Assembly (NCBI GenBank): GCA_017441605.1
Contig: JAFRXD010000015.1
Coordinates: forward strand, 1-64,000
Direction of reading: 5' to 3'
DNA: 64,000 nt
From: Thermoguttaceae bacterium
GTDB taxonomy: Bacteria > Planctomycetota > Planctomycetia > Pirellulales > Thermoguttaceae
Part shown: piece by piece, positions 37,001 through 62,893 of the stretch
Layout: every line of letters begins with the position of its first letter
Position numbering within the stretch: position 1 is the first letter of the stretch
The notes under the pieces: model-generated
Databases searched by the model: none
What the model was told of the DNA's origin: nothing
The model's input: only the letters and a program-made list of their open reading frames with translations
Program-made: the position numbers and the translations under genes

Positions 37001-37380
37001 TCAACAGCCGCATCGGCGCGAACAACGCGACGTACTACGGCGGCGTCGTCAACGAGTTCGGGCGTACCGTCCTCACCAACAGCTACGTCGCCGAGAACAC
37101 GTCCGTGATTCCGGACGCGGGGGCGGATCTGTGGGGCGTCGCGGCGGTCAACTACCGCAACAGTAAGAATAACGTCGTCGGTTACGTCGCCGACAATATT
37201 CAGCTGTACGACGGCGTCGACGGGAACCGCGTCGGAACCGCCGAGAATCCGATCCGCTGCTTCGTCAACGCGCCGGCGGGCAATCTCAATCCGTTGCCCG
37301 ATTACGCGAACGCGGTTCTCGACGAAGCGTTCGCGGAACTGGGCGACGACCTTGACGTCGATCTCGACGTCGACCTCTAA
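22018..37380 (+). CDS. Giant exported CSLREA/beta-helix protein with two degenerate peptidase-like domains
   Basis: I chose ATG 22018 because GAAGGA (22003-22008) is correctly spaced. ATG 22009 in the same frame is possible. The product is 5,120 residues. The planctomycete export motif MEPLEDRQLLAVDP lies at about 39-52. A papain/IdeS-like region (about 115-350) holds WAATLANMLTYTGW and LTLWGYDYD. Pre-peptidase-C-like repeats with YEPNNT and DLYESNNSF follow (about 360-1200), then a fibronectin III-like domain (about 1220-1300). A caspase-like domain (about 1318-1600) contains AVIVGVSDYPG and YFAGSGTY. Nine modules from about 1618 to the end start with VVTxxxDxVDPxDGxxSLREA and mostly close with (D/T)xGAYE. 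Between them lie GGAIY-rich beta-helix rungs. The tail is LDEAFAELGDDLDVDL. A huge surface adhesin or scaffold is inferred. Confidence 0.93.
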   Translation: MSQTGKRFLSGLVNRVLSAKEARSDKRRERSLASRRLGMEPLEDRQLLAVDPTLLSSVSQAEISQAESQAPAPVDLTAIQDAVATTGSGVVITVDDTTFSNAASDDTTGTHRIVADLTANLIDRPVSASRMTWAATLANMLTYTGWSVSSSDVVDKSSTESAESQTLNYILSSFTNDLSNLAQVYAWFMGGSGAYELQGNDIWAQILPNSTNGGLYPATGVYADSTAYCSEFLAAEIASPLYGICSDYLDANYGVGMEIHYMGSTGDDVAYYSGQSYATWLTLWGYDYDTSYEPQDKEYYTAVYVSDPYSDKIERYTIEWNDNLKSYVFTNYQSNVAGRTPYIYSFTTIQRMPGYGVLTPDQYEPNNTPEVFPLDEAGSAAFASDLGKIDVTVPSGSTGAATNGNVKTLSNLTLYAEGSEDADGNIVSDPVDLYKFELTQNASYSDKIVVSYGDGYLSAPLKATLYECGVDGEMYPVDANNYGQSNGFYDGVTKRNVSYYTGADGKTYEKVSYDVTVKMAGLTAGKYYLRVEFADGVVGGVNTNYSVKFYAGFDDLYESNNSFEEVNALPVDSTSKHTANFGVLYGRKFVEDLVLKQYDYNVSETDWFRFEMTAPGAADSAVNVYYKSTSTDINDADLDFVLYRENPDDEYGRGYTMVDRSWEIMTDVETVSLEGLPPGVYYVKVVGNLAAEDGVFVNVEYKLEINPGVDPSLPPDLRAEVLPGNNWESPLVVAVERYEPSDTEVFSNQTNIGPDGNVYLNYSFSLYGARTKDAAAKYENVQLGMFINGVRVSAEDMRAAINAGGLVDTVRDDMLLYFCDGGKTLEAADPEENLGNTKFEFLNFNIGKINDPSGVSLASKYFDSSTFAANSIVIVINPDNYEYFDGFGEVVDNPVVSTTSLTYYNLQFYDGSTPVSISEGQTINVYRNGRLISTFVYGNAPSGFAFKNGDVVMIETVRHNYGVNVLYKETVDGVDNGGVYVAKEGVEGTLEYTVTNNVAASYFILDNLSEDVFSPNGSVTEVMNNENEDRENPDLGVVNIEYLNNTYQGADGEAHVGLRIDNLVITGEKDSTGAYIADWFKFQLITGAEDRANGVNNYSDAYIKIAMDEAVSAVNDPSSGGDLDLYLYKVEIIQPEDEPALSFDEAFERGLYRLKLVAFSKDVKATETIKFANYADDIDDGTYFVRVAGFNGAANRYSLEIGDFTSAGVILPTDPSEYFTDDNVSILNSIATVNWRVPATDYVSRVTISYREAGSDQWIEFGQYKPSVTSCKIPGLAPDTEYEFKLSVTNYFIENDDIDELSAIAKKRTEPYLNEVVYRAVIVGVSDYPGTSGDLVAAVNDAKAFKDALLQDPQWAESNITLLLDDDATKSNVITALETIAGYSDDNDVLVFYFAGSGTYAVTGGSPVGFLKTYGNTRTAYLSNSELATALSKVAAGSKQVILDAGQVPSGIEETSINYDAFINSLTNMTRNGVGDFASDRPAQVAVLTSGQNSAISPVGERSRTVFNTVLCDAITYYDGKGRTAEEAALLNEAIDPTSEKISRVVDADGVATPRLFVESDGRVAIDELASYLNSDLRLYQEGMKSLYKSTTEEQAIIMNGEWRETDVYDDIWLEKGAIIVTTTVDTVDAHDGKTSLREAAATVGKVLDRETVLENGADFTLGAGSVVTLGAYTGTLLEDVDVTYSKGSFKTTEACSLQVGSRTVEFAKPGVAVSWTSEDWQAGDVSLVDETGLDVAELTYNLRAVIGSTIVDKEEYASIIDLKDGDVLYTGVLDGQEAVVTKVGQSYRVLVDGVPYNRTTGLFYKSINEDGEVVYDPVTLSNYVSIAQKVTINTIIFDDSLAGQAITVDTVKGPVVFNSNAVINATSLEGELTFDGRGENSLLKIEGTELVSLIGVKITDASGAAIIIDEGADFELANSVVYGNQCGSAGLFANDGNLTLASCTIANNEGSGDLVSGTGTASIVNTIVALNDLAPNGFTYDDTSFVGSDDPGFVDPASDDYSLLKTSDAIDIGDNTAVELRCGVVLDYDFAGDLRYALGGTIDAGAYEYSVPMEDRETPSTVVTILDDVVDPTDDEISLREAIAYAGTTYTLVSDLQEGDVVTDENGVQYEVKNGRLVSFDGVSAIQYGNYYVVPGAFIVDAYGESTQLAEGEVVTLPNGTRATVVGTQLVYASGIPVNNGSTITLADGTVGTFSNGAVVDFYRNDRIAVALTQGVIDPSTPVAAFDTGVYILTYQGNGYFNATLQYTETDQQNNTTTTTFDATFKLVANTPFEFVDEDGFVTMAAKIATQKSVNLEDGRYVLINPLTETINGRTVTIYAAGAQLTLTRGVFTDNDGFVVTIPKGTLLSAPSGATVAYQASNFTAATLEEGTELTDAEGQVRHYKSGLSLYDEVQVGKTITFAKGRGLEGGTITLDRGAITVERGVTLDATLNSGLTIDADNASRVFTVNTYREPGALVTMNGLTLVNGKAEEGGLIYVAPTSNLKLTDSALSSAEATYGGAIYNAGRLSFEAATKAPTISGTTAVNGGAVYNAGTAALTGANISGVQAKRGGAVYNEGSLSVAGGSIVSAEAEYGGAVYNEGTATISKSAAITDSKALYFGGGVYNSNTLNVVNALFQRDSASNGGAIYNATGKASATNVKFFDNSASYGGAVYDAGRFLASRVNFAGNAALIQGAAVWSKGDATIVSSLAEANGLDTPDTSVTMMRVAEDGKMTLVNDTIAGNGYSAVFSDAANLIVYNSIIGDNNGFDLGANGGTLAVEYSMIENSTLGVSETNPVYAPNFKSFDKAGDWTTWNLMPGSGSEAIDAGSVDLAFYYNLNGARTALTVDYLGNARVSEGGITIGAYESRDVSETVSTVVTTFEDIVDPTDGLVSLREAIRYASTGKTVADRTVTFSPDLFPVDNVGTVYLSPDLQTITIDCPVIVTSEYTDEFGETAYRDITVDGSQSNAPLFLVLDGAEAEMRGLTFANGRASGENPSGGAFIVRDGELSVVDSKFVGNTADRNGGAIYQEGGSIFIVNALMTDNAANKLRGYGGAICQTGGRAFVYNTTIAANDAAVYGGVFASDGLFVMANSIVAGNGGAQSVDVYATNPELTNNFIGAMDAWKQQNGFNGNIIGTPLNVMDPQFVDAAGGDFHLENGSLAINSGSNAYAYGPDGVRLKFDLDANERVVGGVVDMGCYESVMADVPSTVVTSLADNIDQEDGSITLREAIQYAQQYGTPITFDLGEDFEGDAEIYLENGAIDVISDLVIDASMVPGGLKIVGSDDRIFWVHKSGSTLEDGSTTGENGNLTLKNVVLTGGSTTGNGGAVYMDGGEINFTNVLIYGNNAEKAGGAIYATGGKATLLNCTIAANEASDYPGAYFGGTTSLQNTIVATNAVEDSPSDHNYDLEVVGKLTSIASIVGAASATLSGAQNGFNGNMFGTTENIIDPGFAEPGSDDYSLAQNSIALNAGSNRLVGQPGYYASILQTSANSIVVRTDLAGGERIVGGTVDIGAYEFQLKTENPSVVVTTLLDVVDPYDGLISLREAVDYAGSAIYNDGVVTRVGRKITFDPSLTNGVIALQSPLEITKCVTIDAASMAGSITLDAGQTDEEFNALILAGKPDSVADEIWIAGITITGGKADYGAGVYHTTGKATLVNCLIYGNQATYGAGIASVAPKLLGESDANELKLVNVTVANNDSAGAYGGVWSIGGPISMNNTIVAKNTVNGEPGIDISISNVSNLASSLIGAASDNFARAWNGGSNMVGTSNTPFDPVFNDVENDDYSLVRSASGSMSPCINAGDNTLMSLWDGSVALMDAQNNLRVIGGVVDMGALESQMGPTELPSTLVTTLEDIVDPFDGLISLREAVAYANNYGQGNIVTFAPRLSEGTIYLKETLILNSSLTIDGLDNNAHSIVLTTADDVEDQRVLYVNSGDAIINGLTINNRYSERLQNGRTLDIDQGGGVYIRTGSLTMFNSLITDCAATSGSAIYVNEKSEGIDVKLINCTVVANVGLTSDANEGAAVRSDKGTLELWNTIVAANTLQYGEQAQDVYKVASGSGSGTSLSVLNSYIGFSDSVATYAGTAEKVGSLIGSSTNDLSLETQSMFVDLDNRDYNLVDTALATNAGNWDYLNESTIRGTFTSRDIEGKARVYYKLIEMGAFENQTAKDSAITGIEGTAVSLSVTTGRDTVDPSDGETSMREALALADQLMSRGYSDVVINVDTTYALEPQTIRVDSSLGALTINNPVTINGNGCTIDCGNAASGFVVQADGDVVISRVVIADGVAIYGGGIKLVQGNLTLDNSVIYDSSATLKGGGVYVASGATFKSYYSTIAKNVSVEGGGIYSEPGSTVELYNSIVARNRSSVIAANETDVILNGDYSINYSIIGNAGETAADAAKLLAKSTESQIGYGYDYAVNPVFVNETGGDFHLNVASDPASPAIGVGSTEEGMYYGLVDVTGTRIGGYSTSIGAYQIGRETPSTIVTTALDVVDPYDGLISLREAVTSYSYDNIPNAYGAAGCQRPYNSSYGAENAMNNPRVYKTIYYSPVTFDPSLAGQTIRLDPSLGPLTFDFRSTNGAVYDYLIDGSSLSAYGSGGITIDISDLMTSNLSGAFTIEGWAAPSTPDYRPVHLDIRNVTIKGDSDSVAFSVNQWGILSMHNCLVDCYDGVGGGSTLGSIGLCIYIDDNDSDQAGIAHIHDSTLIGSTNIGGALYLYNTILAGYSNVQIKQNNPSYRHVYVDNSLIYRTAGLGGRHSGNWAPTSPWISWQALTDGFVDFANHNYHLKAGSICINSGDPQYVQTLWPEHASQELSLDGIQRSIGVTDMGCYESITVMDVPSSVVTTDLDVVDYADGEVSLREAIFYAQQMMGSYGGRDLGGYCVHFDPSMAGKTIHLDSTIDIDKLVGIDGGDSSGNNLGITLDAGGNGSVFNVDFEADDIELIYTDDQGYARVKRFDLFHLTLTGGNTTGNGGAINIGFCPTVYLVDLDIYGNNATKYGGAIYSYDTDLTILNSRIGANNATYYGGVVNEFGRTVLTNSYVAENTSVIPDAGADLWGVAAVNYRNSKNNVVGYVADNIQLYDGVDGNRVGTAENPIRCFVNAPAGNLNPLPDYANAVLDEAFAELGDDLDVDLDVDL
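26870..36560 (+). repeat. Nine CSLREA-type modules in the giant protein
   Basis: Module starts lie near 26870, 28192, 30586, 31582, 32540, 33500, 34507, 35407 and 36475. Each encodes VVT-x-L-x-D-x-VDP-x-DG-x-x-SLREAI or a close variant. The five central modules are about 950 bases apart, giving a regular protein period of about 320 residues. Such modules are typical of secreted right-handed beta-helix proteins. Confidence 0.8.
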
Positions 37381-37450
37381 TAGGCGCGAGTCCTCCGGCG
37401 AAAGTCGGGGGATTCCGCTTCCGGATTCCTTTTCTAGTTGAATCGGGTTG

Positions 37451-37489
37451 AATTCCCGGAACGTCGCGAGACGCTCCGGGAATTTTTTT
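37451..37489 (+). terminator. Intrinsic terminator of the giant gene
   Basis: AATTCCCGGA (37451-37460) pairs with TCCGGGAATT (37475-37484), with further GTC/GAC pairing inside. A run of seven T follows. It lies about 70 bases after the stop. Confidence 0.85.
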
Positions 37490-37853
37490 ATCTCTTCGCT
37501 ATCTAATCAAGACAACATTAATTGCCCATTTTGCCCAGTCTTTCGACCGGAGCGACCGGAGCGTTGAATAGATTTCGTCAAAAAAGTAAAAAAAACGGAA
37601 CGAGACTAAAGGGCATAATCGGACTAGACGATATACACAATACAAGAGAGAAATAACGAACGCCGCTCAAAGCGAGGCGTTCGGACGAGCGAAAAGGAGT
37701 TCCGAGTCTTTCTTCTCTTACAGTCGGAAAGGATTCCGGCGAAACGCTTTGGATATAAGCGCGTAGGGTCGAGCTTAGGAATGGAGTCCGAGCGAGTCCC
37801 AACGCGAACGGAAGCGCGGCTTCCCATTAACCGCACGTTCCCAGGGGGGGAAT
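37490..37853 (+). other. Gene-free region with several hairpins, candidate structured RNA
   Basis: No protein gene is seen. Hairpins are visible at 37658-37682 (GAACGCC/GGCGTTC), 37700-37729 (TTCCGA/TCGGAA) and 37810-37824 (GGAAGC/GCTTCC). A plus-strand intrinsic terminator at 37854-37893 follows them although no plus-strand protein gene precedes it. This suggests a non-coding RNA of about 200-250 bases, but I could not match it to 6S RNA, tmRNA, SRP RNA or RNase P RNA by conserved core sequences. A CATAAT at 37614 lacks a -35 partner. Confidence 0.35.
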
Positions 37854-37893
37854 AGCCCGGCGATTCGAGTTATTCGGTCGTCGGGCTTTTTTT
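37854..37893 (+). terminator. Plus-strand intrinsic terminator overlapping the queG stop
   Basis: AGCCCGGCGA (37854-37863) pairs with TCGTCGGGCT (37878-37887), followed by TTTTTTT on the plus strand only. It overlaps the last codons of minus-strand queG, so it faces against queG. Confidence 0.7.
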
Positions 37894-39033
37894 ACGCTCT
37901 CGCTCTTTCTCGATCGCTCGCGCGGAGCGCTTTAGGCCGTCGACGGTCGCGCGAAAAACGGGGGTTTTTTTAAAGAGTCGTCGGAAGGTCGCGTCGTCTA
38001 GGCGCTCGACGGCGTCCAGCGGGAGCTCGCGCGGAGGCGCCGCCTCGATCTTTGCGTTGCGCGGGCAGACGGTTCGGCAAATATCGCACCCAAAGAGCCT
38101 CCCCTCGAGTTTCTCGGCGATATCCGGGGGGATTTCGTCTCGATTCTCGATCGTCCAAAAATTTAGACACCGCCTCGCGTCGAGGGTTCGATCGCCGGGC
38201 AGGGCGGTCGTCGGGCAAGCGTCGACGCAGCGGCGGCACGAAAGGCAAGCTAGCTCCGCCGCGTCGGGGTCGAATCGAAGGGACTCTCGCCGCGCCGCCA
38301 AGTATTCTTCGGTCGTCGCGAACCCGGTCAGCGTTTCGAACGGGATCGAGACGAGCAATTCCCCCAAAAAGAAACGGGAGCCGAGTTTCGGGGAGGTCAG
38401 AAGCGAGTTTAGCCCGACGAATCCGATCCCCGCCGCGCGCCCCCAGTCCTTTTCCAAGATGGGCGCCGTGTCGACCGTTCCGCGCGTCGAGGCGCCGGGG
38501 AACCGCTCCTTAACGAAGGAGGCGAGTCGCTTGAGTTTTTGGCGCAGAACGTCGTGGTAGTCGAGCGCGGTCGCGTAGCCGACGATCGTTCCCCCGACCT
38601 CGCTCGATTCCGAGCGCAACTCCGGAGCGTCGAACGGGTTGGCGCGCAGCTCGTTCGTTTCCGCGACTAGGCGCGCCTCCGAAAGCGCGACGACGATCAG
38701 GGTTTTGGCGTCGCTCATCGCGGAGCGCGGATTGCGGCGCTTTTCCGGGTTTTCCGTTAGATACGAGAGGTTTCCGCATTGCCCGGCGCGAACGCGCTCG
38801 AGAAAGAGCTCGTAAGTTCGCGCGTCTCCGACGGGGGCCGCGCCGAGATCGGACAGTCCCAGTTCGAGCGCGAATTTCCGGAGTTCGCGATGAATCGGGG
38901 CGAAGCGATCGAGGTCGAGGGGATCGACTGGATAAAAAAGAGCGCCGCCTCCGAGCTCTTTCGAGCCGGAGGCGGCGTCGTTCGTCGAATTGACGGAGGA
39001 TTCGTAGGCGTCGAAATTAACGACCGAACTCAT
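37870..39033 (-). CDS. queG: Epoxyqueuosine reductase QueG
   Basis: This cobalamin-dependent enzyme with two [4Fe-4S] clusters catalyses the last step of tRNA queuosine synthesis. Family features are LGLSDLGAAPVGDA near the N-terminus and GIVGYATALDYHD-like cobalamin-domain sequence. Two ferredoxin-type cysteine groups follow, CLSCRRCVDACP and FGCDICRTVCP. I prefer ATG 39033 (MSSVVNFD). The frame extends to ATG 39069, but both lie inside the 3' end of the upstream gene's repeat and neither has a clear ribosome site, so translational coupling is likely. The N-terminal 40 residues before RELRKFALELG are non-conserved. queD lies 2.5 kb away on the other strand. Confidence 0.9.
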   Translation of the reverse strand: MSSVVNFDAYESSVNSTNDAASGSKELGGGALFYPVDPLDLDRFAPIHRELRKFALELGLSDLGAAPVGDARTYELFLERVRAGQCGNLSYLTENPEKRRNPRSAMSDAKTLIVVALSEARLVAETNELRANPFDAPELRSESSEVGGTIVGYATALDYHDVLRQKLKRLASFVKERFPGASTRGTVDTAPILEKDWGRAAGIGFVGLNSLLTSPKLGSRFFLGELLVSIPFETLTGFATTEEYLAARRESLRFDPDAAELACLSCRRCVDACPTTALPGDRTLDARRCLNFWTIENRDEIPPDIAEKLEGRLFGCDICRTVCPRNAKIEAAPPRELPLDAVERLDDATFRRLFKKTPVFRATVDGLKRSARAIEKERERKKSPTTE

Positions 39034-39696
39034 TTCCGACCAGGGGGACGACCGGGGTCGCCGCATCAATAACTCTGTCGGTGTAGGTCGCGCCGTTGGG
39101 CCGCGTAAAGGAGTCCATCGGGATCGAGGGGATCGACACGTATTTCCCTCCCCTTGCTCTTCCGCTCGTTTTGGGCGAGGCTTCTTTTTCCAATCGTTCT
39201 TCGCCGAACTCAGTTCCGACTAGGGGGACGACCGGAGTCGGCGCGTCGATAACTCTGTCGGTATAGGTCGCGCCGTTGGGCCGCGTAAAGGAGTCCATCG
39301 GGATCGAGGGGATCGACACGTATTTCCCTCCCCTCGCTCTTCCGCTCGCTTTGGGCGAGGCTTCTTTTTCCAATCGTTCTTCGTCGAAGGCGCGCGACAG
39401 CACGGCGACGGTCGGTTTCGAGTCGACGGCGGGGACGAGATCCCCAACTTTGCTAAGACTCAACTCCGCGCGCTCTTGCTCGCAAACCAAGGGGGTCGAC
39501 TCCGGCGTTTCCAAAGAGGTCGCGTCGGTGGTTCCGATTTCTTTAGCGGGGGCCGGAACGACGTCGGCCGCCGACTCCGGGCTGGAGCCGCGGGACAAAT
39601 CGCCGGTCGAACCGCGTCCGGATAGGAAAAGACGCTCAACCAAAGGCAAAGAACGACAAGGATCGCCGACAAGATAAAACCTGAAAACTTAGCCAT
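39017..39696 (-). pseudogene. Frameshifted membrane-anchored repeat protein upstream of queG
   Basis: ATG 39696 starts MAKFSGFILSAILVVLCLW, a clean hydrophobic anchor. That frame then degenerates. The frame one base over (open 39649-39017) continues with Ser/Pro/Glu-rich sequence of normal codon use. A shift within TCTTTGCCTTTGG (about 39640-39652) would join them into one protein of about 225 residues. It ends with two nearly identical 60-residue repeats (SGRARGGKYVSIP, then MDSFTRPNGATYTDRVID). A +1 programmed frameshift, a sequencing error or a broken gene are all possible. I do not recognise a family. Confidence 0.5.
39026..39385. repeat. 180-bp direct tandem repeat
   Basis: Units at 39026-39205 and 39206-39385 differ at only a few positions. 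The period is a multiple of three and stays in frame for the repeat protein. The queG start codon lies within the first unit. Confidence 0.85.
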
Positions 39697-40072
39697 TTTC
39701 TCATCTCGCTCTTGCGCATACTTTCGCTCTTGCAACGCGAACCCTGGACGACCGAGTGGGTCGGCGCTCGTTTCGCGCTTGGTACGGGTCTCGGTAACTG
39801 GGAAAAACAAACGTTTTAGACTCGAGGGAGGTCGCCGAGATTTCGCGGCGACCGTTTTAAAGAAAAAACTTTCTTTAAAACTCCAAGAGTCCTTATTTTT
39901 TCTATTTCGACCATTTTAACATAAAGGGACTCAAGGTCAACGCGTTTTTCCCTATTTATTTGATAAAATTCTAAGAATGGGAGATATAAAAGGAATGTAA
40001 CGATTGTTCTTGATAAGAAACGCGGCGGGAAGAAGTTGGGCGCGCTTAGGCGCCGTCAAAATCCGCAAGACG
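39697..40072. other. AT-rich gene-free region with inverted repeats
   Basis: No gene is seen. A GC-rich hairpin (GGTCGCCG...CGGCGACC, about 39828-39853) is followed by a perfect AT-rich inverted repeat, TTTTAAAGAAA/TTTCTTTAAAA (about 39855-39880). The part 39890-40010 is strongly AT-rich with several TATA-like boxes. It may hold the promoter of the minus-strand repeat protein and leader structure. Confidence 0.5.
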
Positions 40073-40102
40073 TAAAAAAAAGAGCGCTCGCTGCGCTCTT
40101 AA
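40073..40102 (-). terminator. Intrinsic terminator of tRNA-Gln(CUG)
   Basis: AAGAGCGC/GCGCTCTT stem with a 5-base loop and a run of eight T on the minus strand, a few bases beyond the tRNA 3' end. Confidence 0.85.
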
Positions 40103-40105
40103 AAG

Positions 40106-40177
40106 CTGGGGTACAGGGATTCGAACCCCGACTAACTGGTTCAGAGCCAGTCGCGCTAACCATTACGCTATACCCCA
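40106..40177 (-). tRNA. tRNA-Gln (anticodon CUG)
   Basis: A 72-base minus-strand cloverleaf with acceptor TGGGGTA/TACCCCA and discriminator G. Anticodon stem ACTGG/CCAGT has loop CTCTGAA, giving CTG. The T-arm is GGGGTTCGAATCCC. CCA is not encoded. Confidence 0.95.
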
Positions 40178-40192
40178 ATCGGGAACGCGGTT

Positions 40193-40220
40193 ATTATAGC
40201 GCGGGTTTTCGCGGCGTCAA
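40193..40220 (-). promoter_or_regulatory. Promoter of tRNA-Gln(CUG)
   Basis: Minus-strand TTGACG (40220-40215) and TATAAT (40198-40193), 16-base spacer, 16 bases before the tRNA 5' end. Confidence 0.85.
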
Positions 40221-40262
40221 GCGTCGAGCCGAGAAAAACGATTCGACAGTTGCGTTTTGCAT

Positions 40263-40288
40263 AAAAAAAGCTTTGGGGAAACCAAAGC
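40263..40288 (-). terminator. Intrinsic terminator of the 20-codon mini-gene
   Basis: GCTTTGG/CCAAAGC stem with a short loop and seven T on the minus strand, 39 bases after the mini-gene stop. Confidence 0.8.
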
Positions 40289-40326
40289 CGGAAGAAACGA
40301 AATCGGAGGGTAAGGGCGAAACCGAA

Positions 40327-40389
40327 CTAGGCGGCCGACGCCAAGATGCTGTCTCTCCACCAGGGGCGACGTTTAGCGCGAGTCGACAT
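40327..40389 (-). CDS. Putative 20-residue peptide with its own transcription unit
   Basis: ATG 40389 follows AAGGAG at a standard distance, one of the best ribosome sites in the window. The peptide reads MSTRAKRRPWWRDS and ends ILASAA before TAG. It is basic with a Trp pair and a short hydrophobic tail. A promoter (40464-40491) and an intrinsic terminator (40263-40288) frame it into a transcript of roughly 190 bases. It is too short for homology by eye. It could be a bioactive peptide, a leader peptide or a small RNA with a chance frame. The combination of signals argues for translation. Confidence 0.5.
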   Translation of the reverse strand: MSTRAKRRPWWRDSILASAA

Positions 40390-40463
40390 AACGGATCTCC
40401 TTTTCGAGGCGGGGGGTGGGATTCGCGTTTGGGAATAACCGGCGCATTCCTCAAACCGCCCCC

Positions 40464-40491
40464 AATATAGCCCAAAAAAACATTTCGGCAA
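40464..40491 (-). promoter_or_regulatory. Promoter of the mini-gene
   Basis: Minus-strand TTGCCG (40491-40486) and TATATT (40469-40464), 16-base spacer. The spacing matches that of the tRNA promoters in this window. Confidence 0.65.
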
Positions 40492-40574
40492 GGGGAACTT
40501 CTCACAATTCTTGCAAAAATTTTTTACTGTGAGACGTTCGAGTCGAGCCCTAAGAGGAGGCGCTTCGACGGCGC

Positions 40575-40613
40575 AAAAAAACGCGGCTCGCCGAACGGAT
40601 CGACGAGCGCGCG
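40575..40613 (-). terminator. Terminator of the small secreted protein gene
   Basis: CGCG-GCTCG arms pair around a short loop, and a run of seven T follows on the minus strand about 40 bases after the stop at 40651. T-rich sequence also follows on the plus strand. Confidence 0.75.
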
Positions 40614-40650
40614 TTTTTGTTTTGGAAAGGAGCTTATCGCTCGACTCGAC

Positions 40651-41151: not shown

Positions 41152-41502
41152 TGTGTCCTCCTAAGGAAAAATCGCCGCGTAAAGCGACGTCGAACGCGTC
41201 GATAAAACATGCGCCGCCTAATCGGTCGCGCGGCGAATATGCGTTTCCGTCGAACGCGCGAGCGGCTCGCGCGCGAACCGGGGCGGAAGGCGCTCCTCCT
41301 CGGTCGATAGATTCGCCGCGCGATTTATCTAGCTTGTCTATCTTATCTCTCTTATCGGCGCCGTACAGAAAAAATTTGGAAATTTTTGACTCTCGCCCCA
41401 TCGAAAATGACGTCGCGCTTCCAAAAATCGAAAAAGGCGTTATAATGCAAACCTTGGCGGTCGCGTTCGGCCCCTTTTTGCTCGAATCGGAGGTTTTGGG
41501 CG

Positions 41503-41916: not shown

Positions 41917-41937
41917 ATTCGCAATAAAGCCGAAAAG

Positions 41938-42297: not shown

Positions 42298-42339
42298 GTC
42301 GCTCGAGTTATTGGCCTCGGGCTCTAAGGAAGTATTTTA

Positions 42340-43593: not shown

Positions 43594-43612
43594 CACGTTT
43601 GGAGATCCGATT

Positions 43613-44374: not shown

Positions 44375-44375
44375 T

Positions 44376-44783: not shown

Positions 44784-44825
44784 TGACGGATTCCTTTCTC
44801 GCGGCGCGCTTCGCCGCTTCGGGAC

Positions 44826-44852: not shown

Positions 44853-44859
44853 ATCGCTC

Positions 44860-44888: not shown

Positions 44889-44963
44889 TCCAGGTCGGCG
44901 CTCGCCCCGGGCCGGGCGCTCGGCGTTTCATTGCAACGCGATAAGAACGAAAGACGATATAAT

Positions 44964-53886: not shown

Positions 53887-56800
53887 ATGAAACTGTTCGA
53901 ACGTCGCAACGATCGGAAATCTCGAAACGACTCTCGCAAACTGCGCCTTGAGCGCTTGGAACATCGCGAGTTGCTCAGCGCCGACGGGCTCGGCGCGATA
54001 CCGGCGGTCGCCGACGCCGATCCGGAAGCTTTTGTCGTCGACGCGGTCGTCGACGATCCTGACGACGGTCTTACCTCGCTTCGCGAAGCGATCGCGCAAG
54101 TTGGGTCCGCGGGCGCGGTCATTACTTTCGATCAATCGGTCGCCGGGCAGACCTATACCCTGACCGACAACATCGCGTTCGAGTACGCGGTTAAGATCGA
54201 CGCGAGTTCCATCGACGGCTTCACGATCGACGGCGACGGGAAATATGGGTTCCGAACCACCGGCGCCGCGAGCCGGACTTACGAGTACGTCGACGTCACT
54301 TTCTCGAACTGCCTCCAAGCGATCCAGCTCAAAAACGGGACGCTCAACGTTACCGACTGCGCTTTCGTCGACTGCGTTACCGGCACGACCTCCAACGACG
54401 TCACCTACAACGGCGCGGCGATCGGGTTGGGTCATAGCAACAGCTCGAATAGAGCCTCAGTCAACGCCACGATTACGAACTCGAGCTTCGACAATTGCGT
54501 TAGCTCCAAATCGAACGGCGGCGCGATCTACTACAACGCGAGCAATTCGTCCTCGACGACTCCCGAGACCGCTAAGCGCCTCGTTATTTCCGGTTCGACG
54601 TTTAACGATTGCACCTCGTCCTCCAGCGGGGGCGCGATTTACGTTCAATCGTATCAATACAAATACGTCGGACCGGTCGTGACCATTTCCGACGGATCCT
54701 CCTTTACGAATTGCGGCTCCACTTGCGCCAAATACGGCGGCGCGGTCTACGTTGTGGACGGAACCCTCAATATTTCCGACGCGACATTCGATGGCAACGG
54801 CAACGTTAGGCTCGAGGGAGGCGCCGTTTGCGTCAGCTCGACCCTGAACTCCAATGGCGGCCGCGGTTCTTATTCCTGCTCGATTAGCGGAAACACGACC
54901 TTTAAGGACAACGTCGCCAATATTGGCGGCGCGGTCTTCTCTTATGGAAAAGACGGAACGATTACGATCGACGGCGGCGAGAACTCGACCATTCTGTTCC
55001 AAGGCAATTCCTGCCAAATGCGCGGCGGCGCGATTTCCGTTTACGAGCCTTCCTACTCGAACACGCTTCAAGCGAACGTCGTTAACGTGACGGTCGACGT
55101 CGACGGCGTCAAGTTTATTGGAAACAACGCCGGTCAATACGGCGGCGCGATCTATTTCCAAAACGGCGATATTTCCAATTGCGAATTTACCGAAAATACG
55201 TCGGGCTATTCCGGCGGCGCGGTCGTCGCGATGGGCTTGCTCCCCAAGAACGCCCCGGAAGGGACTCCTTCGAACGTTACGATTACCGACTGCTCCTTCG
55301 ACGGGAACGTCGCCGATCATACCGGCGGGGCTCTTCTGGTCGGTTATGCGCACGACGAGATGGTTTACAACACGACGGTGACGCTGAAGGGAACCGTTTC
55401 GTTCACCGACAACGAAGCGACCGGTAGCCGAGGCGGCGCGATCTGCGTTCGCGGCGGGACGCTCGTTACCGACGAAGCCGCGGCCGTTACGATCGAAGGC
55501 AATACCGCCAAAAACGGCGGCGCGATCGCCGCTTACAGCCACCGAACCAACGGCGAGACGGCGGGCGCGATCGATTTCACCCTTGGAACCGTCGCGATTA
55601 CCGATAACGTCGCCACTCAAGACGGCGGCGCGATCGCCATCGACGATATCGCCACTATTACGTTGGGCGAAAACGTTACCGTCAAGGACAATACGGCGGC
55701 GGGGAACGGCGGAGCCGCGCGAATCAACGCGGGCGGCGAGCTGGTTTTGACCGGCAACGACCTGACCGGGAACGTCGCGACGGTCAACGGCGGCGCGATC
55801 TACTGCGCGGGCAAGGTTTCCGGCGAGGGTAGCTTCACGAACAACACGGCGGAGAACGGCGGCGGCGTCTACTTCGCCGAGGGCGGCGAATTCGCGGCGG
55901 TCGCGAGTTTCGCCGACAACGCGGCGACGGCGAACGGCGGCGGGGCTTACGTTCCCGAGGGCGTTACGGTCGAGCTGTCGGAACTGACGCTCTCCGGCAA
56001 TACCGCGACGAACGGCGGCGCGTTCTACAACCTCGGAACCCTTTCGCTGACCGACATGACGATTGGCGGCGAGGGCGAGTCGGGCAATAGCGCGACGAAG
56101 TACGGCGGCGCGATCTACAACCAAGGCTCCGTAACGATTTCGGGCGGCTTGGGCGTTTGCAACCAAGCGGGTCTCGGCGGGTTCTACTACGGCGCGGGTA
56201 GCGTCGAGGTCGACGGGACGACGTTCTCCGGGAACGCCGCGACGGCGAACAATTCGGGCAAATACGGCTCGGGCGGCGCGTTCTACGTTACGACCAAGGC
56301 GAGCGCCGGGCTGACCGGCTCGGCGACGATCGCGAATGCGACGTTCGAGGACAACTTCGCGACGAAGTACGGCGGCGCGATCGCGAACTACGGCGAGATC
56401 TCCGTTTCCGGCTCGACGTTCACCGGGAACCAAGGGGGTAACGGCGGCGCGATTCAAACCGCCGGAACGGCGACGATCATCGACAGCGAGTTCGAAGAGA
56501 ACTCCGCGATTCGAGCGGAGGTCGCGATTTCCGGCGACGACTACGGCGGGAACGGCGGCGCGATCTTCGCGTCGAACAACGGCTCGTCCGGAGCGGCTTC
56601 GACCCTGACGCTCGACGGTGACAACGAGTTCAACGACAACGCCGCCGAAAACGCGGGTGGCGCGATCGATCTTTTGAGCGGAACCCTCGTGTTCGGCGAC
56701 GCCGAGACGATCTTCCGTCGCAATCACGCCGACGCGGTCGGCGGCGCGCTGGTCATCGGCGGCGACGTCGATTTTGGTAGCGACAATCCGGGCTTTATGT

Positions 56801-57534
56801 TCCGCGCCAACACGTCCGATCTCTACGCCGCGACGGTCGCCGCCAACTGCGCTCCGAACGACGTCAAGGCGATCGAGTACAAGCAGAACTTCAGCCTCTC
56901 CGACTCTTACGACGAGTTCGACTCGTTTATTCGCACCGGCTCGGTCGCGGGGGGCTCGCTGTCCTTCGATTATCTGCGCCAAGTGGCGAACGTCGATTCC
57001 GCGTCGACGGTTTCCTACAAGATCTGGGGAACCGAGGGCGACTATACGACGATCGACTCGACCGGGTCGATCGCGCTGGACGGGGACGGGACTTACACGA
57101 TCGTCTTCTACGTCGACGACCGAACGGACGTCGAGCTGAAACTGACGGTAACGGTCGGAACGGACGGAACGGTTCTCGCGCGCAAGATCGACATGAGCGA
57201 TCGCGAGCCGCTCGGACAAGTCGGATTCGCGTTCGTTTCCTACGGGAAGCCGGTTAGCAAGTGGGTCGTCACTTGGGGCGACGACGGGTCGAGCCAAGAG
57301 TACTCCGGGCTCGGGTACTCTCGCAACGCGTACAAGATCTGCGAGGTTCCCGGATCGTACAAGGTCTCGCTGAGCGTTACCTACGCGGACGGCTCGACGT
57401 GCGACTTCGGGGAAGTTGGCAACTACACGGTCGAGGCGGTCGAATCGGGCGACGACGGCGAAAGCGGCGATAGCGGCGCCCTGCTCGACGCAGCGTTCGC
57501 CGACGACGAGCTGCTGATCGATCTCGACTTCTAG
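53887..57534 (+). CDS. Exported beta-helix surface protein, tandem paralogue 1
   Basis: The 1,215-residue protein starts at ATG 53887 after AAGGGGA. The N-terminus carries LERLEHRELLSADGLG (about 20-36), followed by a CSLREA segment, VVDDPDDGLTSLREAIAQ. About 850 residues of right-handed beta-helix follow, with recurrent GGAIY, GGAVY, NGGA and FxxNxA turns. After these come the conserved block FGDAETIFRRN to GGDVDFGSDNP and a PKD-like domain with WVVTWGDDGSSQ (about 1105-1190). The last residues are LLDAAFADDELLIDLDF. An adhesin or S-layer-like role is inferred from the fold. The neighbouring two genes share the whole C-terminal third. Confidence 0.9.
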   Translation: MKLFERRNDRKSRNDSRKLRLERLEHRELLSADGLGAIPAVADADPEAFVVDAVVDDPDDGLTSLREAIAQVGSAGAVITFDQSVAGQTYTLTDNIAFEYAVKIDASSIDGFTIDGDGKYGFRTTGAASRTYEYVDVTFSNCLQAIQLKNGTLNVTDCAFVDCVTGTTSNDVTYNGAAIGLGHSNSSNRASVNATITNSSFDNCVSSKSNGGAIYYNASNSSSTTPETAKRLVISGSTFNDCTSSSSGGAIYVQSYQYKYVGPVVTISDGSSFTNCGSTCAKYGGAVYVVDGTLNISDATFDGNGNVRLEGGAVCVSSTLNSNGGRGSYSCSISGNTTFKDNVANIGGAVFSYGKDGTITIDGGENSTILFQGNSCQMRGGAISVYEPSYSNTLQANVVNVTVDVDGVKFIGNNAGQYGGAIYFQNGDISNCEFTENTSGYSGGAVVAMGLLPKNAPEGTPSNVTITDCSFDGNVADHTGGALLVGYAHDEMVYNTTVTLKGTVSFTDNEATGSRGGAICVRGGTLVTDEAAAVTIEGNTAKNGGAIAAYSHRTNGETAGAIDFTLGTVAITDNVATQDGGAIAIDDIATITLGENVTVKDNTAAGNGGAARINAGGELVLTGNDLTGNVATVNGGAIYCAGKVSGEGSFTNNTAENGGGVYFAEGGEFAAVASFADNAATANGGGAYVPEGVTVELSELTLSGNTATNGGAFYNLGTLSLTDMTIGGEGESGNSATKYGGAIYNQGSVTISGGLGVCNQAGLGGFYYGAGSVEVDGTTFSGNAATANNSGKYGSGGAFYVTTKASAGLTGSATIANATFEDNFATKYGGAIANYGEISVSGSTFTGNQGGNGGAIQTAGTATIIDSEFEENSAIRAEVAISGDDYGGNGGAIFASNNGSSGAASTLTLDGDNEFNDNAAENAGGAIDLLSGTLVFGDAETIFRRNHADAVGGALVIGGDVDFGSDNPGFMFRANTSDLYAATVAANCAPNDVKAIEYKQNFSLSDSYDEFDSFIRTGSVAGGSLSFDYLRQVANVDSASTVSYKIWGTEGDYTTIDSTGSIALDGDGTYTIVFYVDDRTDVELKLTVTVGTDGTVLARKIDMSDREPLGQVGFAFVSYGKPVSKWVVTWGDDGSSQEYSGLGYSRNAYKICEVPGSYKVSLSVTYADGSTCDFGEVGNYTVEAVESGDDGESGDSGALLDAAFADDELLIDLDF

Positions 57535-57802
57535 TCTCGACCCGCTTAGTATTTACGACTTCGGCGTCCCGGATCTATCCGGGACGCCAATTCCCAACGC
57601 CTTGGTTCGCCGCCGCGAGCCGGGGCGTCGTCGTTTAGGTCAGCGACCGCGACTTTTCTTCCGTATTGGGCGCTTTAGTTATTTTTCTGAAAATGGACGC
57701 GAATTCGCCGATTTGCCGCGGCGATTTTCTTGTTTTAGCGATTTTAACAATAGTATCGTCTTTTATTTTTTCTGAAAATCCAAAATATTCGTTAAGGTCG
57801 GA
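57535..57802. other. Gene-free spacer with perfect hairpin
   Basis: No gene is seen. Right after the stop lies an 11-bp perfect hairpin (57563-57588). The rest is moderately AT-rich and unremarkable up to the promoter at 57803. Confidence 0.6.
57563..57588 (+). terminator. Perfect 11-bp hairpin after paralogue 1
   Basis: GGCGTCCCGGA and TCCGGGACGCC with a TCTA loop, but no following T run. It may act as an mRNA-end stabiliser or a factor-dependent terminator. Confidence 0.5.
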
Positions 57803-57831
57803 TTGTCCGAGCGCCCCGCTCGTTCTAAAAT
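57803..57831 (+). promoter_or_regulatory. Promoter of the decayed paralogue
   Basis: TTGTCC at 57803-57808 and TAAAAT at 57826-57831, 17-base spacer, 80 bases before ATG 57911. Confidence 0.5.
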
Positions 57832-57910
57832 GAGTCGTCGCGGCGACGCTAAACGACCGACGTTTTTATTATTCCCCTTTTGTTCCGACGCCAGCGCAGG
57901 AAGAATTATA

Positions 57911-59116
57911 ATGAAGTATTTTTTCTTTGAGAAAAAAGTCTAACTTGTCGAATCGCAAACTGTTCCTCGAGCCTCTGGAAAACCGCGAACTGTTGAGCGC
58001 GGACGGGCTTCAAGGCTTGCCGTCGGTCGCCGACGCGGAAGACGCGGTCACACCTTTTACGTTCGCGCCGCCGTCGACGATTCCTCCGACGGGCTTATGT
58101 CTCTGAAAGAGGCCGCCGAAGCGACGAACACGCTGGCGATCAACCACTTGCTCAATCCGTCTCAATACCCCTCCGGCGTCCAAGGCGTCTTGACGCTCGA
58201 GGGCGAAAACGAGTTCACCGAGAACGTCGCGGACAACGCTAGGGGCGCGATCGACCTCGTGAGCGGAACCCTCGCGTTCGGCGACGCCGAGACGTTCTTC
58301 CGACGCAATAGCGCCGGCGTCGTGGGCGGCGCGCTCGTTCTCGGCGGCGACGTCGACTTTGGAACCGAATCTCCGGCGTTTATGTTCCGCGCCAACGTCT
58401 CCGGCGTTTACGCGAGCGCCGTCGCGGCGGGAGTCGCCGCCAACGGCGACAAGGCGACCGCCCTCAAGGAAGGGTTTGGACTCTCCGACTCCTACGATCC
58501 GTTCGACTCCTTCGTTCGCACCGGCTCGGTGGCGAACGCGAGCCTGACGTTCGATTACCTGCTGCAAGTGGCGGGCGTCGACTCCGCGTCGACGATCTCC
58601 TATAAGATCTGGGGCGTTCCGGGCGAATATACGACGATCAACTCGACCGACTCGATTCCGCTCGACGGCGAGGGGACTTACACGATCGTCTACTACGTCG
58701 ACGATAGAACGGACGTCGAGTTGAAACTGACGGTTACCGTCGGAACGGACGGGACGATTCTCGCGGGCAAGATCGACACGAGCGAGCGCCAGCCCGGGTT
58801 CGTCGGGTTCGCGTTCGTCTCGTACGACAAGCCGGTGAGCAAGTGGGTCGTCGCTTGGGGCGACGACAATTCGACCCAAGAGTTCAACGGACTCGGCTAT
58901 TCGCAGAACGCGTACAAGCTGTGCGAGGTTCCGGGATCGTACAAAGTCTCGCTGAGCGTTACGTACGCGGACGGATCGACTTGCGACTTCGGCGAAGTCG
59001 GGACCTACTCCGTCGAGGAAACGGAGTCCGAGACCGGCGACGGCGGCGACGATAGCGGCGCCCTGCTCGACGAAGCGTTCGCGGACGAGGATTTCCTCGT
59101 CGGGCTCGACTTCTAA
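57911..59116 (+). pseudogene. Decayed, internally deleted surface-protein paralogue 2
   Basis: ATG 57911 follows AGGAAG. The frame MKYFFFEKK stops at once because of one extra A in a six-A run (57932-57937). Removing one A joins it to NLSNRKLFLEPLENRELLSADGL. A second shift near 58050-58060 (ACACCTTTTAC) is needed to reach VDDSSDGLMSLKEAAEATN. The beta-helix region, about 700-800 residues in the neighbours, is missing. Sequence passes directly to the conserved C-terminal third (LTLEGENEFTENVADNA). The PKD-like domain (WVVAWGDDNSTQ) and tail LLDEAFADEDFLVGLDF are intact. The 3' part is an open frame from about 58097. Confidence 0.8.
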
Positions 59117-59147
59117 TTCGCGCTAGCGCGGTCGATTAAATAGAGAG

Positions 59148-59185
59148 CGCGCCTTCGGCGATCTTTGCCGGGGGCGCGTTTTTTT
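59148..59185 (+). terminator. Terminator of the decayed paralogue
   Basis: CGCGCC (59148-59153) pairs with GGCGCG (59173-59178) plus an inner CGGC/GCCG, followed by seven T. A palindrome CGCGCTAGCGCG lies just after the stop. Confidence 0.8.
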
Positions 59186-59440
59186 GGGGGCGGCGACGCT
59201 CGTTCGCGGGGAGGGGTCGGGAACGGGTTTTTCCGGACGCCGCGATAGGGCGAGCCCAATTTTTTCCCGATAGCGTTTCAGGATTTAGGGTTGCCCCTCG
59301 GTTGACAAAACTTGATTTTCCGTTAATCTTGCCCATAATTTCGCGAGTTCGTCCGACGGGCTCGCAGGGTGGGACAAGTAGAGACGCGTTTGCGACGGCG
59401 CGGACGCGCGCAAATTTTTGAGAAACGGAGAAAGAGAACG
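59186..59440. other. Spacer and leader of paralogue 3
   Basis: No gene. It contains the promoter region 59302-59339 and a leader of about 95 bases. Confidence 0.5.
59302..59339 (+). promoter_or_regulatory. Overlapping promoters of paralogue 3
   Basis: TTGACA at 59302-59307 pairs with TAATCT at 59324-59329 (16 bases). TTGATT at 59312-59317 pairs with CATAAT at 59334-59339 (16 bases). Either could start the mRNA. Confidence 0.5.
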
Positions 59441-62400
59441 ATGTTCCGTTATCGTCAAAACAATCGGGGATCGCGCGCGGTTTCGCGCAAATTGCGGCTT
59501 GAATCGTTGGAAAATCGCGAATTGCTCAGCGCGGACGGGCTTGGAATCGAGCCGGTCGCGGACGGGGCTTCGACGTTGATCGTCAACACGACGGTAGACG
59601 ACTCCCACGACAGTCTGCTTTCGCTCAAAGAGGCTCTCGCCAGCGCCCGTTCGGGCGACACGATCGAATTCGACCAAACGTATTTTAGCGCGAATCCGGT
59701 TTATCAATTGACAGAGCGCTTGAGTATTGGAAACAACGTTACGATCGACGCGAGCTCCGTTCCGGGGTTCAAGATCGCGGCGACCGACGCGTTTAGTTCC
59801 TCCGGCAATATGACGATCCGGGGCGTCGAATTCTACGGGTGCGAGAAGGTTTTGACCCACTCTTCCTCCACGTCGGCGACGTTCGAGAACTGCGTCTTTA
59901 CCGACTGCGTCTCACCGAGCTCGCCGACCGACGCGACCGTTCCGACCGACGCGATTATCTCTTGCGCCGGTCAGTCGCAGAACAAGCACGGGACCCTAAC
60001 GATCAAAGATTCTCGCGTCGAGAACTGCGGCGGGAACGCGTTCGTTCACGGTAGTTTTATGACGATTAACTGCGAGAACTCGACGTTTACCGGCAACGAC
60101 GCGGACTCGATCTTCCTAGTCTCCCAGTGCTACGTTACCGTCGCGGGTTCGACGTTCGGGGGGGAGAACGACGCGGACGGCAACGACGGAATCTGCCTCC
60201 ACTTCATCGACGAAGGGGGCGCGTCGAAGCCTTCGTCGCTCGACGTCGAGAACTCGACTTTCCAGAACAATAACGATTGCTGCGTCGATTTCTCCAATTC
60301 GGGCGCGCTCGAATTGACCTTCGCCAATTCGTCGTTCATAGGGAACGAGACGGAAGGGAACGGAGCCGCGATTTGTATGGACGCGACCCACGCCTACAAC
60401 GGGGCCCAGTCGACGCGCGAGCGAATCGTCCACATAAACAATTGCGAGTTCGCCGACAATAAAGCGGCGCTCGACGGGGGCGCGATCTACTCCGCGAGCC
60501 GATACTCTTCGTCCCACGCCGACGACTCCGCGACCCTCATTTTCGAGGGGACCGTCTCGTTTAGCGGCAACGAGTCGCTCGGAGGCTCCGGGGGCGCGAT
60601 TTACGCGTACCAGATCGAGAACGATTCGGATCGGTTCGTTCGTCTGAAGACCGCCGAGGGCGCGACGCTCTCGTTCGACGACAATAAAGCGAGCGCGAAC
60701 GGAGGCGCGATCGCGCTGGCCGTCCACGCGATCGCCGAACTGACGGGGGCGACCTTTACTGGAAATCGCGCCGAAAACGGCGGCGCGATCGCTAGTTACG
60801 ATCAAGACAATTCCGTTCTCTTAACCGATTGCTCTCTTACGTTGAACTCCGCGAGGGAACTTGGAGGAGGCGTTTATAGCGTCGCCAATTTCTACGCGAC
60901 GGGGAGGAGTTCGAAATTGTCGTCGAACGGCGCGAAAAACGGGGGCGCCATTTACAATACCGGAATCGCGACGGTCGCCGGAGGCATTGTCGCCGGAAAC
61001 GTCGCGACCGAGAACGGCGGTTTCTACAACGGCGAAGGGGTGTTGGGAATCAACGCCGAGTACAATTCCGCCTCGGAAACCTTTACCCCTTTGACGACCG
61101 CGACGACGATCCAGGGCAACGAGGCGGTCAACGGCGGGGCGATCTACTGCGTCGGTCTCGTCGGCGGCTCGGCGACCTTTACGGGCAACGAGGCGGTCAA
61201 CGGCGGGGCGGTTTATCTCGTCTCCAGCGGGACTTTTGCGATGCGATACGCGGGTTTCGTCAACAATAGCGCGACGAACGGGGGCGCGTTCTACGTTCCC
61301 GCCGACGTGAAAGTTGAGCTTACGAACTCGACCGTTTCGATTCTTTCCGGGAACGAGGCGAAAAATGGAGGCGCGTTCTACAACCTCGGAACCCTCGACC
61401 TGACCGACATTATCTTCGCCGACAACGCGGCGAAATACGGTGGCGCCATCTACAATATGGGAACGGTCGCCATTACCGGCGGATCGGCGTCTCGAAACGA
61501 GGGCTCGCTCGGCGGTTTCTACTACGGATCCGGAATCGTCGGGGTCAACGCGACTTACGACGCCGAGACCGGAACGTTCGCCGAAACCGAAACCGCGACG
61601 ACCTTCTCCGAAAATGTCGCGACGTCGAACGACGCCGGCAAATACGGCTCCGGTGGCGCGTTCTATATCACGACCAAGTCGGGCGCGACCGGAAACGCCT
61701 ATCTCAACAACGCGACCTTCGAGTTCAACGAGGCGACCAAGTACGGCGGCGCGGTCGCGAATTACGGGATAGTAACCGTCGTCAACTCGAGCTTTAGTAG
61801 CAACGAGGGCGGGGACGGGAGCGCGATTCAGACGGCGGGAGCGGCGACGATCGTCGATTGCTCGTTCTCGAGCAACGAGGCTCAAAAGCGCTCGAAGGAG
61901 ATCGCGGTCGGCGATTTCGGAGGCAACGGCGGGGCGATCTTCGCCTCCAATAACGGATCCTCCGGCGCGACCTCGACTTTAACGCTCGAAGGCCGCAATC
62001 TGTTCCAAGGCAATACCGCCGATAACGCGGGGGGCGCGATCGATTTGGTTAGCGGAACCCTAGCGTTCGGCGACGGCGCGACGGAGTTTTCCACGAACTA
62101 CGCGGGCGTCGTCGGGGGCGCGCTCGTCGTCGCGGGAGACGTCGACTTTGGTTCCGACAATCCGCATTTTGAGTGGAGTTCCAATACCTCGGGCGCCTAC
62201 GCGGCGACGGTCGCCGTCAATAGCTCGCCGACGGGGTCCAAAGCGGTCGCGCTCCGAGAAGGGTTCGGTCTTGGCGACTCTTACGACGAGTTCGACGCGT
62301 TCGTTCGAACCGGCGCGGTCGTCGACGCGAGCCTTTCGTTCGAATACCTGTTGCAAGTGGCGGGCGTCGACTCGGGATCCGTCGTTAATTACCGAATCTG

Positions 62401-62893
62401 GGGCGCCGGAACCGATTACGAGACGATCGGTCCGAACGAAACGATTCCGCTCGACGGGGAGGGGACTTACACGATCGCGTATTACGTCGACGACGCGTCG
62501 GACGTCGAGCTGAAGCTGACCGTAACGGTCGGGACCGACGGCAATACGATTCTCGCGCGCAAGATCGATATGAGCGAGCGCCAGCCCGGGTTCGTCGGGT
62601 TCGCGCTCGTTTCCTACGGCAAGCCGGTTAGCAAGTGGAGCGTTACTTGGGGCGACGACAATTCGACGGAAACCGTCGAGGCGCTCGGATATTCGCAAAA
62701 CGTCTATAAACTGTGCGAGACGCCGGGCTTCTATAAGATCTCCCTTAGCGCGACTTACGCCGACGGCTCGACCGTCGATTTCGGCGAGATCGGGTCGTAC
62801 AACGTCGAAGCCTCGAGCGATTCCGACGACAGCGGGGCGCTTCTCGACGACGCGTTCGCGGACGAGGATTTCCTTATCGGGCTCGAGTTCTAA
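59441..62893 (+). CDS. Exported beta-helix surface protein, tandem paralogue 3
   Basis: I chose ATG 59441 (MFRYRQNNRGSRAVS) after GGAG. The open frame extends 24 codons upstream without similarity. The 1,150-residue product has LRLESLENRELLSADGLG (about 21-38), a CSLREA-like segment VDDSHDSLLSLKEAL, and a beta-helix with recurrent GGAIY and GGAFYN rungs. The shared block AFGDGATEFSTN and a PKD-like domain with WSVTWGDDNSTE follow. The tail is LLDDAFADEDFLIGLEF. It aligns throughout with the gene at 53887 and, at the C-terminus, with the pseudogene between them. Its first half is less regular than paralogue 1, with longer spacers between rungs. Confidence 0.9.
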   Translation: MFRYRQNNRGSRAVSRKLRLESLENRELLSADGLGIEPVADGASTLIVNTTVDDSHDSLLSLKEALASARSGDTIEFDQTYFSANPVYQLTERLSIGNNVTIDASSVPGFKIAATDAFSSSGNMTIRGVEFYGCEKVLTHSSSTSATFENCVFTDCVSPSSPTDATVPTDAIISCAGQSQNKHGTLTIKDSRVENCGGNAFVHGSFMTINCENSTFTGNDADSIFLVSQCYVTVAGSTFGGENDADGNDGICLHFIDEGGASKPSSLDVENSTFQNNNDCCVDFSNSGALELTFANSSFIGNETEGNGAAICMDATHAYNGAQSTRERIVHINNCEFADNKAALDGGAIYSASRYSSSHADDSATLIFEGTVSFSGNESLGGSGGAIYAYQIENDSDRFVRLKTAEGATLSFDDNKASANGGAIALAVHAIAELTGATFTGNRAENGGAIASYDQDNSVLLTDCSLTLNSARELGGGVYSVANFYATGRSSKLSSNGAKNGGAIYNTGIATVAGGIVAGNVATENGGFYNGEGVLGINAEYNSASETFTPLTTATTIQGNEAVNGGAIYCVGLVGGSATFTGNEAVNGGAVYLVSSGTFAMRYAGFVNNSATNGGAFYVPADVKVELTNSTVSILSGNEAKNGGAFYNLGTLDLTDIIFADNAAKYGGAIYNMGTVAITGGSASRNEGSLGGFYYGSGIVGVNATYDAETGTFAETETATTFSENVATSNDAGKYGSGGAFYITTKSGATGNAYLNNATFEFNEATKYGGAVANYGIVTVVNSSFSSNEGGDGSAIQTAGAATIVDCSFSSNEAQKRSKEIAVGDFGGNGGAIFASNNGSSGATSTLTLEGRNLFQGNTADNAGGAIDLVSGTLAFGDGATEFSTNYAGVVGGALVVAGDVDFGSDNPHFEWSSNTSGAYAATVAVNSSPTGSKAVALREGFGLGDSYDEFDAFVRTGAVVDASLSFEYLLQVAGVDSGSVVNYRIWGAGTDYETIGPNETIPLDGEGTYTIAYYVDDASDVELKLTVTVGTDGNTILARKIDMSERQPGFVGFALVSYGKPVSKWSVTWGDDNSTETVEALGYSQNVYKLCETPGFYKISLSATYADGSTVDFGEIGSYNVEASSDSDDSGALLDDAFADEDFLIGLEF

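Follow-up and report, generated by a model that had tools for sequence, protein, structure and literature searches.

On how planctomycetes bring giant proteins to their place on the cell surface, the clue described so far is, to our knowledge, the N-terminal LEPR motif. This motif, known as LEPR-XLL or Planc_extracel (PF07595, NF012209), is regarded as an export signal of planctomycetes (Studholme 2004, PMC8567305). Reports of it cover Rhodopirellula baltica as well as 52 genes of Tuwongella immobilis; of the proteins of these 52 genes, 20 were detected, eight of them only in the SDS-soluble fraction (PMC8567305). The open-access literature searched gave no account of a C-terminal counterpart to LEPR.

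Choice-of-anchor domains, as named by NCBI, stand before an anchoring or sorting signal whose kind varies from one bacterium to another, and signals of the PEP-CTERM and type IX kinds are among those that follow them. The type I secretion pattern fits giant proteins that have no evident classical signal peptide and an acidic amphipathic C-terminus. The C-terminal tail of SSB and the C-terminal peptide of FtsZ are short acidic/hydrophobic peptides, joined by a flexible linker, which dock to partner proteins. In the gut-associated planctomycete lineage considered here, the same short acidic tail ends dozens of giant surface proteins that are otherwise unlike one another; judging from sequence, this tail has the look of an address label or docking peptide for the cell surface, of a kind not described before.

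Like other LEPR-XLL/Planc_extracel proteins, the tagged proteins have this motif within the first ~100 residues; however, the motif is N-terminal and already known, whereas the tail is a separate C-terminal feature of one genus only. With the PEP-CTERM/exosortase and type IX domains the tag shares the form of a short conserved C-terminal block on many unrelated surface proteins. The initial annotation of this DNA had set it apart from both types, and rightly: in contrast to PEP-CTERM, the tag has no transmembrane helix or Arg cluster, neither model matches at the C-terminus, and cognate machinery was not found. The tails are acidic, lack a long hydrophobic span, and gave no PEP-CTERM match among the NCBIfam models. 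The type IX model (Por_Secre_tail, TIGR04183) gave none at the C-terminus and one internal match below the cut-off, at residues 666–688 of one protein. Type I C-terminal signals also are acidic amphipathic C-termini of giant adhesin-like proteins, but the tag is far more conserved in sequence, and a HlyD-type adaptor was not found over the cut-off in six genus genomes. The likeness to the SSB and FtsZ tails is in layout only; those proteins are cytoplasmic and unrelated.

Tagged Genes of the Window

The window is a stretch of 64,000 nt from a Thermoguttaceae bacterium (GCA_017441605.1, contig JAFRXD010000015.1, positions 1–64,000, forward strand). The following features of this stretch are considered:

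22018–37380, + strand: 5,120-aa surface protein with LEPR, fn3, caspase-like (Peptidase_C14), beta-helix, choice-of-anchor Q repeats and tag
22117–22173, + strand: N-terminal LEPR/Planc_extracel motif (PF07595) of this giant protein, 30.6 bits, over the cut-off
37306–37377, + strand: C-terminal tag of the 5,120-aa protein, ANAVLDEAFAELGDDLDVDLDVDL, directly before the stop; congener orthologues have like ends
53887–57534, + strand: 1,215-aa polymorphic-membrane-protein-repeat protein with tag
53932–53985, + strand: N-terminal LEPR/Planc_extracel motif of the 53887 gene, 22.1 bits, below the cut-off
57472–57531, + strand: C-terminal tag of the 53887 gene, SGALLDAAFADDELLIDLDF, directly before the stop
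57911–59116, + strand: frameshifted, shortened copy of the polymorphic-membrane-protein-repeat gene type, open part 58097–59116
57954–58004, + strand: N-terminal LEPR motif of the frameshifted 57911 gene, in another frame than the rest, over the cut-off
59054–59113, + strand: C-terminal tag of the frameshifted copy, SGALLDEAFADEDFLVGLDF, directly before the stop
59441–62893, + strand: 1,150-aa polymorphic-membrane-protein-repeat protein with tag
59486–59536, + strand: N-terminal LEPR/Planc_extracel motif of the 59441 gene, 29.6 bits, over the cut-off
62831–62890, + strand: C-terminal tag of the 59441 gene, SGALLDDAFADEDFLIGLEF, directly before the stop

Six-frame translation confirmed the main claim of the initial annotation, namely that all four surface-protein genes share an acidic C-terminal tail. 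LDxAFA occurs exactly four times in the window, every time directly 5' of a stop codon, and all four tails are strictly terminal: NAVLDEAFAELGDDLDVDLDVDL in the 22018 gene (end 37377), GALLDAAFADDELLIDLDF in the 53887 gene (end 57531), GALLDEAFADEDFLVGLDF in the 57911 gene (end 59113), and GALLDDAFADEDFLIGLEF in the 59441 gene (end 62890). All four tails that had been quoted are present; the one of the 22018 gene is four residues longer than given there. All four genes have the tail, but the 57911 gene is frameshifted rather than intact: its ATG frame stops after 10 codons, LEPR is read in another frame, and the rest of the gene is open at 58097–59116. It is a decayed or mis-assembled copy, being read so because of its ~76–80% DNA identity to both neighbouring genes. 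The genes at 53887–62893 form one group of three close paralogues, and the window therefore contains only two independent examples, this group and the 5,120-aa protein.

The shared N-terminal LExLExRxLLS motif, which had also been noted, is present and is identical to the already known Planc_extracel/LEPR-XLL motif. PF07595 scores over the cut-off in three of the four window proteins and below it in the 53887 protein. The window also encodes two T2SS/T4P-type ATPases, a SurA-like PPIase, and a transglutaminase; the annotation of these neighbours gives no specific link to the tag.

The Tag in the Genome

Searching the DNA with a fixed LDxAFA pattern yielded mainly chance matches, and profiles were therefore used instead. 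About 31 proteins of this genome (3.9 Mb, 82% complete) match the tail profile at E < 1e-6. Here and in the congeners, the motif can be written as [SA]x[AS][LIV][LI]DxAFAxx…(D/E-rich)…[LF] and occupies the last 17–37 residues. The translated matches lie 0–6 residues from the stop, with the exception of L073, in which a TAG stop stands where other tails have Trp, and the tail is truncated.

The large LEPR proteins of this genome mostly end in a longer version of the tail, with the consensus SSAxLDxDSxFENYFxDELxxFWDVLAxSxxK. This long variant (FENYFEDELEEFWDVLAKSIAK type) is unlike the short tail of the window; the intermediates SAAILDAAFENYFDEELELGFEL and SSAILDLDAAFEDYFDDELALI bridge the longer tail to LLDDAFADEDFLIGLEF of the window. 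An fn3-like last domain is common to 26 tagged proteins, which form one cluster. Paralogy thus accounts for part of the tag count within this genome, because many long-tail proteins share this domain.

PF07595 gave 62 matches in the genome at E ≤ 10, 13 of them over the cut-off, and besides the window genes the C-ends were read for most of these 62 genes. Among LEPR proteins whose C-end could be read, about one in three has no tail. Tagged proteins are larger (median 2,118 aa vs. 922 aa for untagged LEPR proteins, p = 3e-5, with the two sets assigned by eye). Every inspected tagged ORF with an intact N-terminus has the LEPR/PF07595 motif (L326–L332), and the expected co-occurrence of tail and motif is thereby borne out. 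Strong tail matches on ORFs without LEPR were, among those inspected, contig-edge or frameshifted fragments.

Distribution of the Tag

An HMM built from the tails of congener LEPR proteins only was searched against 59 proteins of this genome (115,134 residues). All 14 of its best 14 matches are C-terminal and include all four window tails, which score 11.9–18.1 bits, while the best reversed or shuffled control reaches 1.5 bits. The likeness of the tails exceeds chance.

With a combined short-tail profile (A3), the tag was found in 18 of 19 congeners, with ~70 matches. The first profile (A2), built from the long tails of this genome, had suggested a species-private tail; this was an effect of sensitivity, and A3 shows that the genus shares the tag. 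The inspected loci of the genus are terminal, apart from chance-level matches such as L280. The initial annotation had named three observations that would speak against a tag, and within the genus the opposite was seen in each case: the tail is not restricted to close full-length paralogues and, chance-level matches aside, it occurs neither internally nor in cytoplasmic proteins.

Within a genome the tails are alike, to near-uniformity, and they differ between genomes. In G017, 22 tail matches were found, e.g., SNALLDEAFADFFEEAFFEL, SSALVDEAFADYFEEYFE, and SKAVLDEAFADFFSEGLFEEF, each followed by the stop. The tail types are AFADFFEEEFFE in G017, AFAELFFEELD in G007, and AFADEDFLIGLEF and FENYFEDELEEFWDVLAKSIAK in the genome studied here.

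In other genomes of the phylum the tag was found in 0 of 391 at E ≤ 0.05. Weak matches in the family and order outside the genus look like chance: at the inspected loci the match is internal or falls by chance on the end of an unrelated protein. The tag thus appears confined to a single genus of Thermoguttaceae, whereas LEPR is spread through the family (39 of 81 genomes at E ≤ 1e-4). Outside the genus just one LEPR protein has a readable C-end at useful length, and diverged tags there might escape detection. In a search with the C-terminal region of the giant protein, the genus was linked to MAGs of Thermoguttaceae and of other planctomycetes, with ruminant gut as the source of many.

Selection and Shared Descent

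The shared tail could be the inherited end of recently duplicated genes, with no function of its own. The three close paralogues of the window and the fn3-like last domain common to most long-tail genes of this genome agree with such an origin. In addition, the argument against common descent that had been drawn from the window is weaker than claimed, with three of the four genes close paralogues and one of these broken. The wider genome and the genus settle the question, and they support the view that the tail sits on proteins with unrelated middles rather than descending with whole genes.

Pairs of G017 proteins were compared, with blastp E > 1 over 120 residues taken as no upstream similarity, the first 13 tail residues as the tail, and the 13 residues immediately before as the flank. 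In the 87 pairs without upstream similarity, tail identity is 63% vs. 6% in the adjacent 13 residues. In pairs with upstream similarity the tail identity is 62%, equal to that of unrelated pairs, and the G017 tails follow at least four kinds of protein end that show no similarity to one another. Where tail residues are shared, the synonymous codon identity amounts to 0.59, against an expectation of 0.46 from codon usage; the tails have therefore largely diverged as DNA but were kept as protein. From the contrast between tail and flank together with this codon divergence, it follows that the conservation is selected and is not mere paralogy. Simple paralogy was ruled out by the boundary and codon tests; the inherited-end explanation is already contradicted, and we give it almost no credence.

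In the alignment of the giant-protein orthologues, the tail core is constant and the preceding linker varies in sequence and length. This supports the earlier description of a strictly terminal block behind a variable linker, in proteins that also have an N-terminal export motif.

Position, Charge, and Shape of the Tail

In four congener proteins, in which the NCBI choice-of-anchor Q model was matched to its last profile position, this domain ends exactly 20 residues from the C-terminus, and the tag fills the gap. The tails have a mean net charge of -6, and their hydrophobic moment peaks at 85–95 degrees (0.39 vs. 0.19 shuffled), as would be the case for an amphipathic helix. In AlphaFold2 models of the three window paralogues, a beta-rich domain of moderate confidence comes first; the tail after it is unpacked and of low confidence (pLDDT about 30), and its only helix is a short one at ALLDDAF.

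Proposed Role of the Tag

The tail is strictly terminal, conserved on unrelated proteins, and in the position of an anchor, as C-terminal sorting or anchoring tags in general are. It is also under protein-level selection, portable, LEPR-linked, near-uniform per genome, drifting between species, and genus-restricted. We consider it probable that the tail, acidic and amphipathic, is a C-terminal docking tag by which proteins are sorted to the surface or anchored there. The LEPR motif at the N-terminus would drive the export of the large surface proteins; during or after this export, the hydrophobic face of the tail would dock into one species-specific putative receptor, which would sort or anchor the tagged fibres on a common surface structure. 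This would be the role that the PEP-CTERM, LPXTG, and T9SS tails have elsewhere. The sorting-tag interpretation of the initial annotation is accordingly sustained in part: terminality, linker, portability, and the link to LEPR support it, while sorting itself is a prediction from sequence, and no receptor or co-distributed peptidase or translocase was identified. The tag is unlikely to be a general export signal and more likely serves a post-export step, because there are LEPR proteins without it inside and outside the genus. Similarity within a genome and drift between species are what one shared receptor would impose. A broader suggestion, made tentatively and with slightly more doubt than confidence, is that gut planctomycetes may have an undescribed surface sorting system, in which the tag would act downstream of LEPR on a single rapidly co-evolving receptor and all tags of a genome would change together.

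The main rival, although an unlikely one, is secretion by a type I-like exporter (ABC/membrane-fusion/outer-membrane), for which the tail would be the C-terminal signal and would stay uncleaved, as it does in giant RTX adhesins, with LEPR as a retention or second signal. The tagged proteins are indeed giant, without an evident classical signal peptide, and acidic and amphipathic at the C-terminus, and congeners have in common with this genome a conserved trio of membrane-fusion genes, one of which carries an M50 peptidase as a fusion partner. However, this M50-HlyD trio does not adjoin the tagged genes, LEPR proteins occur family-wide without the tag, and the type I HlyD adaptor model (TIGR01843) gave no match over the cut-off in the six genus genomes searched (0/6), which speaks against type I substrates with a cognate HlyD-type adaptor.

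Alternatively, the tail might be an assembly element that binds another copy or another surface protein (e.g., the basic LEPR-proximal segment) and knits the fibres together with no separate receptor. An acidic amphipathic tail and a basic N-terminal segment on the same proteins, the uniformity of the tail within a genome, and its presence on the large proteins would suit this, but conservation of the basic LEPR segment reaches well outside the genus, where no matching tail goes with it, and we regard such knitting as rather improbable. The preference of the tail for very large proteins might also point to a shield for long cytoplasmic precursors before export, through chaperone binding or protection from degradation; we know of no precedent for a protective tail so genus-restricted and genome-uniform, and this function seems very improbable.

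As a docking tag, the portable, genome-uniform tail would provide a second handle on the placement of planctomycete surface proteins. It allows a prediction of the proteins that form one set at the surface and can be a bait in the search for the receptor, its species-specific variants form a natural series for testing co-evolution, and it could serve as a surface-display tool in this group. The conserved membrane-fusion trio of the genus with the M50 fusion, which has no link to the tagged genes, is a candidate of interest.

C-Terminal Tails of the LEPR Proteins

Three proteins of the genome under study that carry the N-terminal LEPR/Planc_extracel motif (PF07595/NF012209), L080 (C16), L086 (C36), and L120 (C29), share an aromatic, Trp-rich tail unlike the acidic C-terminal tag; they end in EDTDRDQRDWWSWWW, RNERGRSWDWWF, and EDVERGANGYDWGFWRW, respectively. 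This tail is perhaps a second class of tag. A further group of orthologous LEPR proteins, L202, L203, and L204 from other genomes (G016, G011, and G018, respectively), is rich in Arg at the C-terminus, where the sequence is conserved (VFETLNEIVDGDDPDERRKRRSFR or close variants of it).

Alterations of the acidic tail can be noted at the 3' ends of two genes of the same genome. The L073 tail (C93:72240-76655), which is of the longer version, lacks its second half owing to a TAG stop codon in place of the conserved Trp, and the 5,583-aa protein encoded by L094 (C47:17558-35107) apparently contains tandem copies of the tail, the first being SSAVLDEEQEFFEES and the second GADFENYFEDDLEEFWDLLAKS.

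Other Features

The tagged 5,120-aa surface protein of the window (22018-37380) contains a caspase-like domain (Peptidase_C14, EACC1-type), and its orthologues, about 5,200-5,450 aa in length, are found in many congeners.

The following features were also identified:

L313:5281-11077, with equivalents in L314-L316: conserved gene trio with membrane-fusion proteins
63039-63952, end of the window: two tandem copies of a segment of about 450 bp, with 86% identity between them

Two genes of the trio encode membrane-fusion proteins, the first of them combined with GAF, and the third encodes an M50 peptidase fused to a membrane-fusion protein. The trio at L313-L316 possibly represents parts of an unusual exporter.
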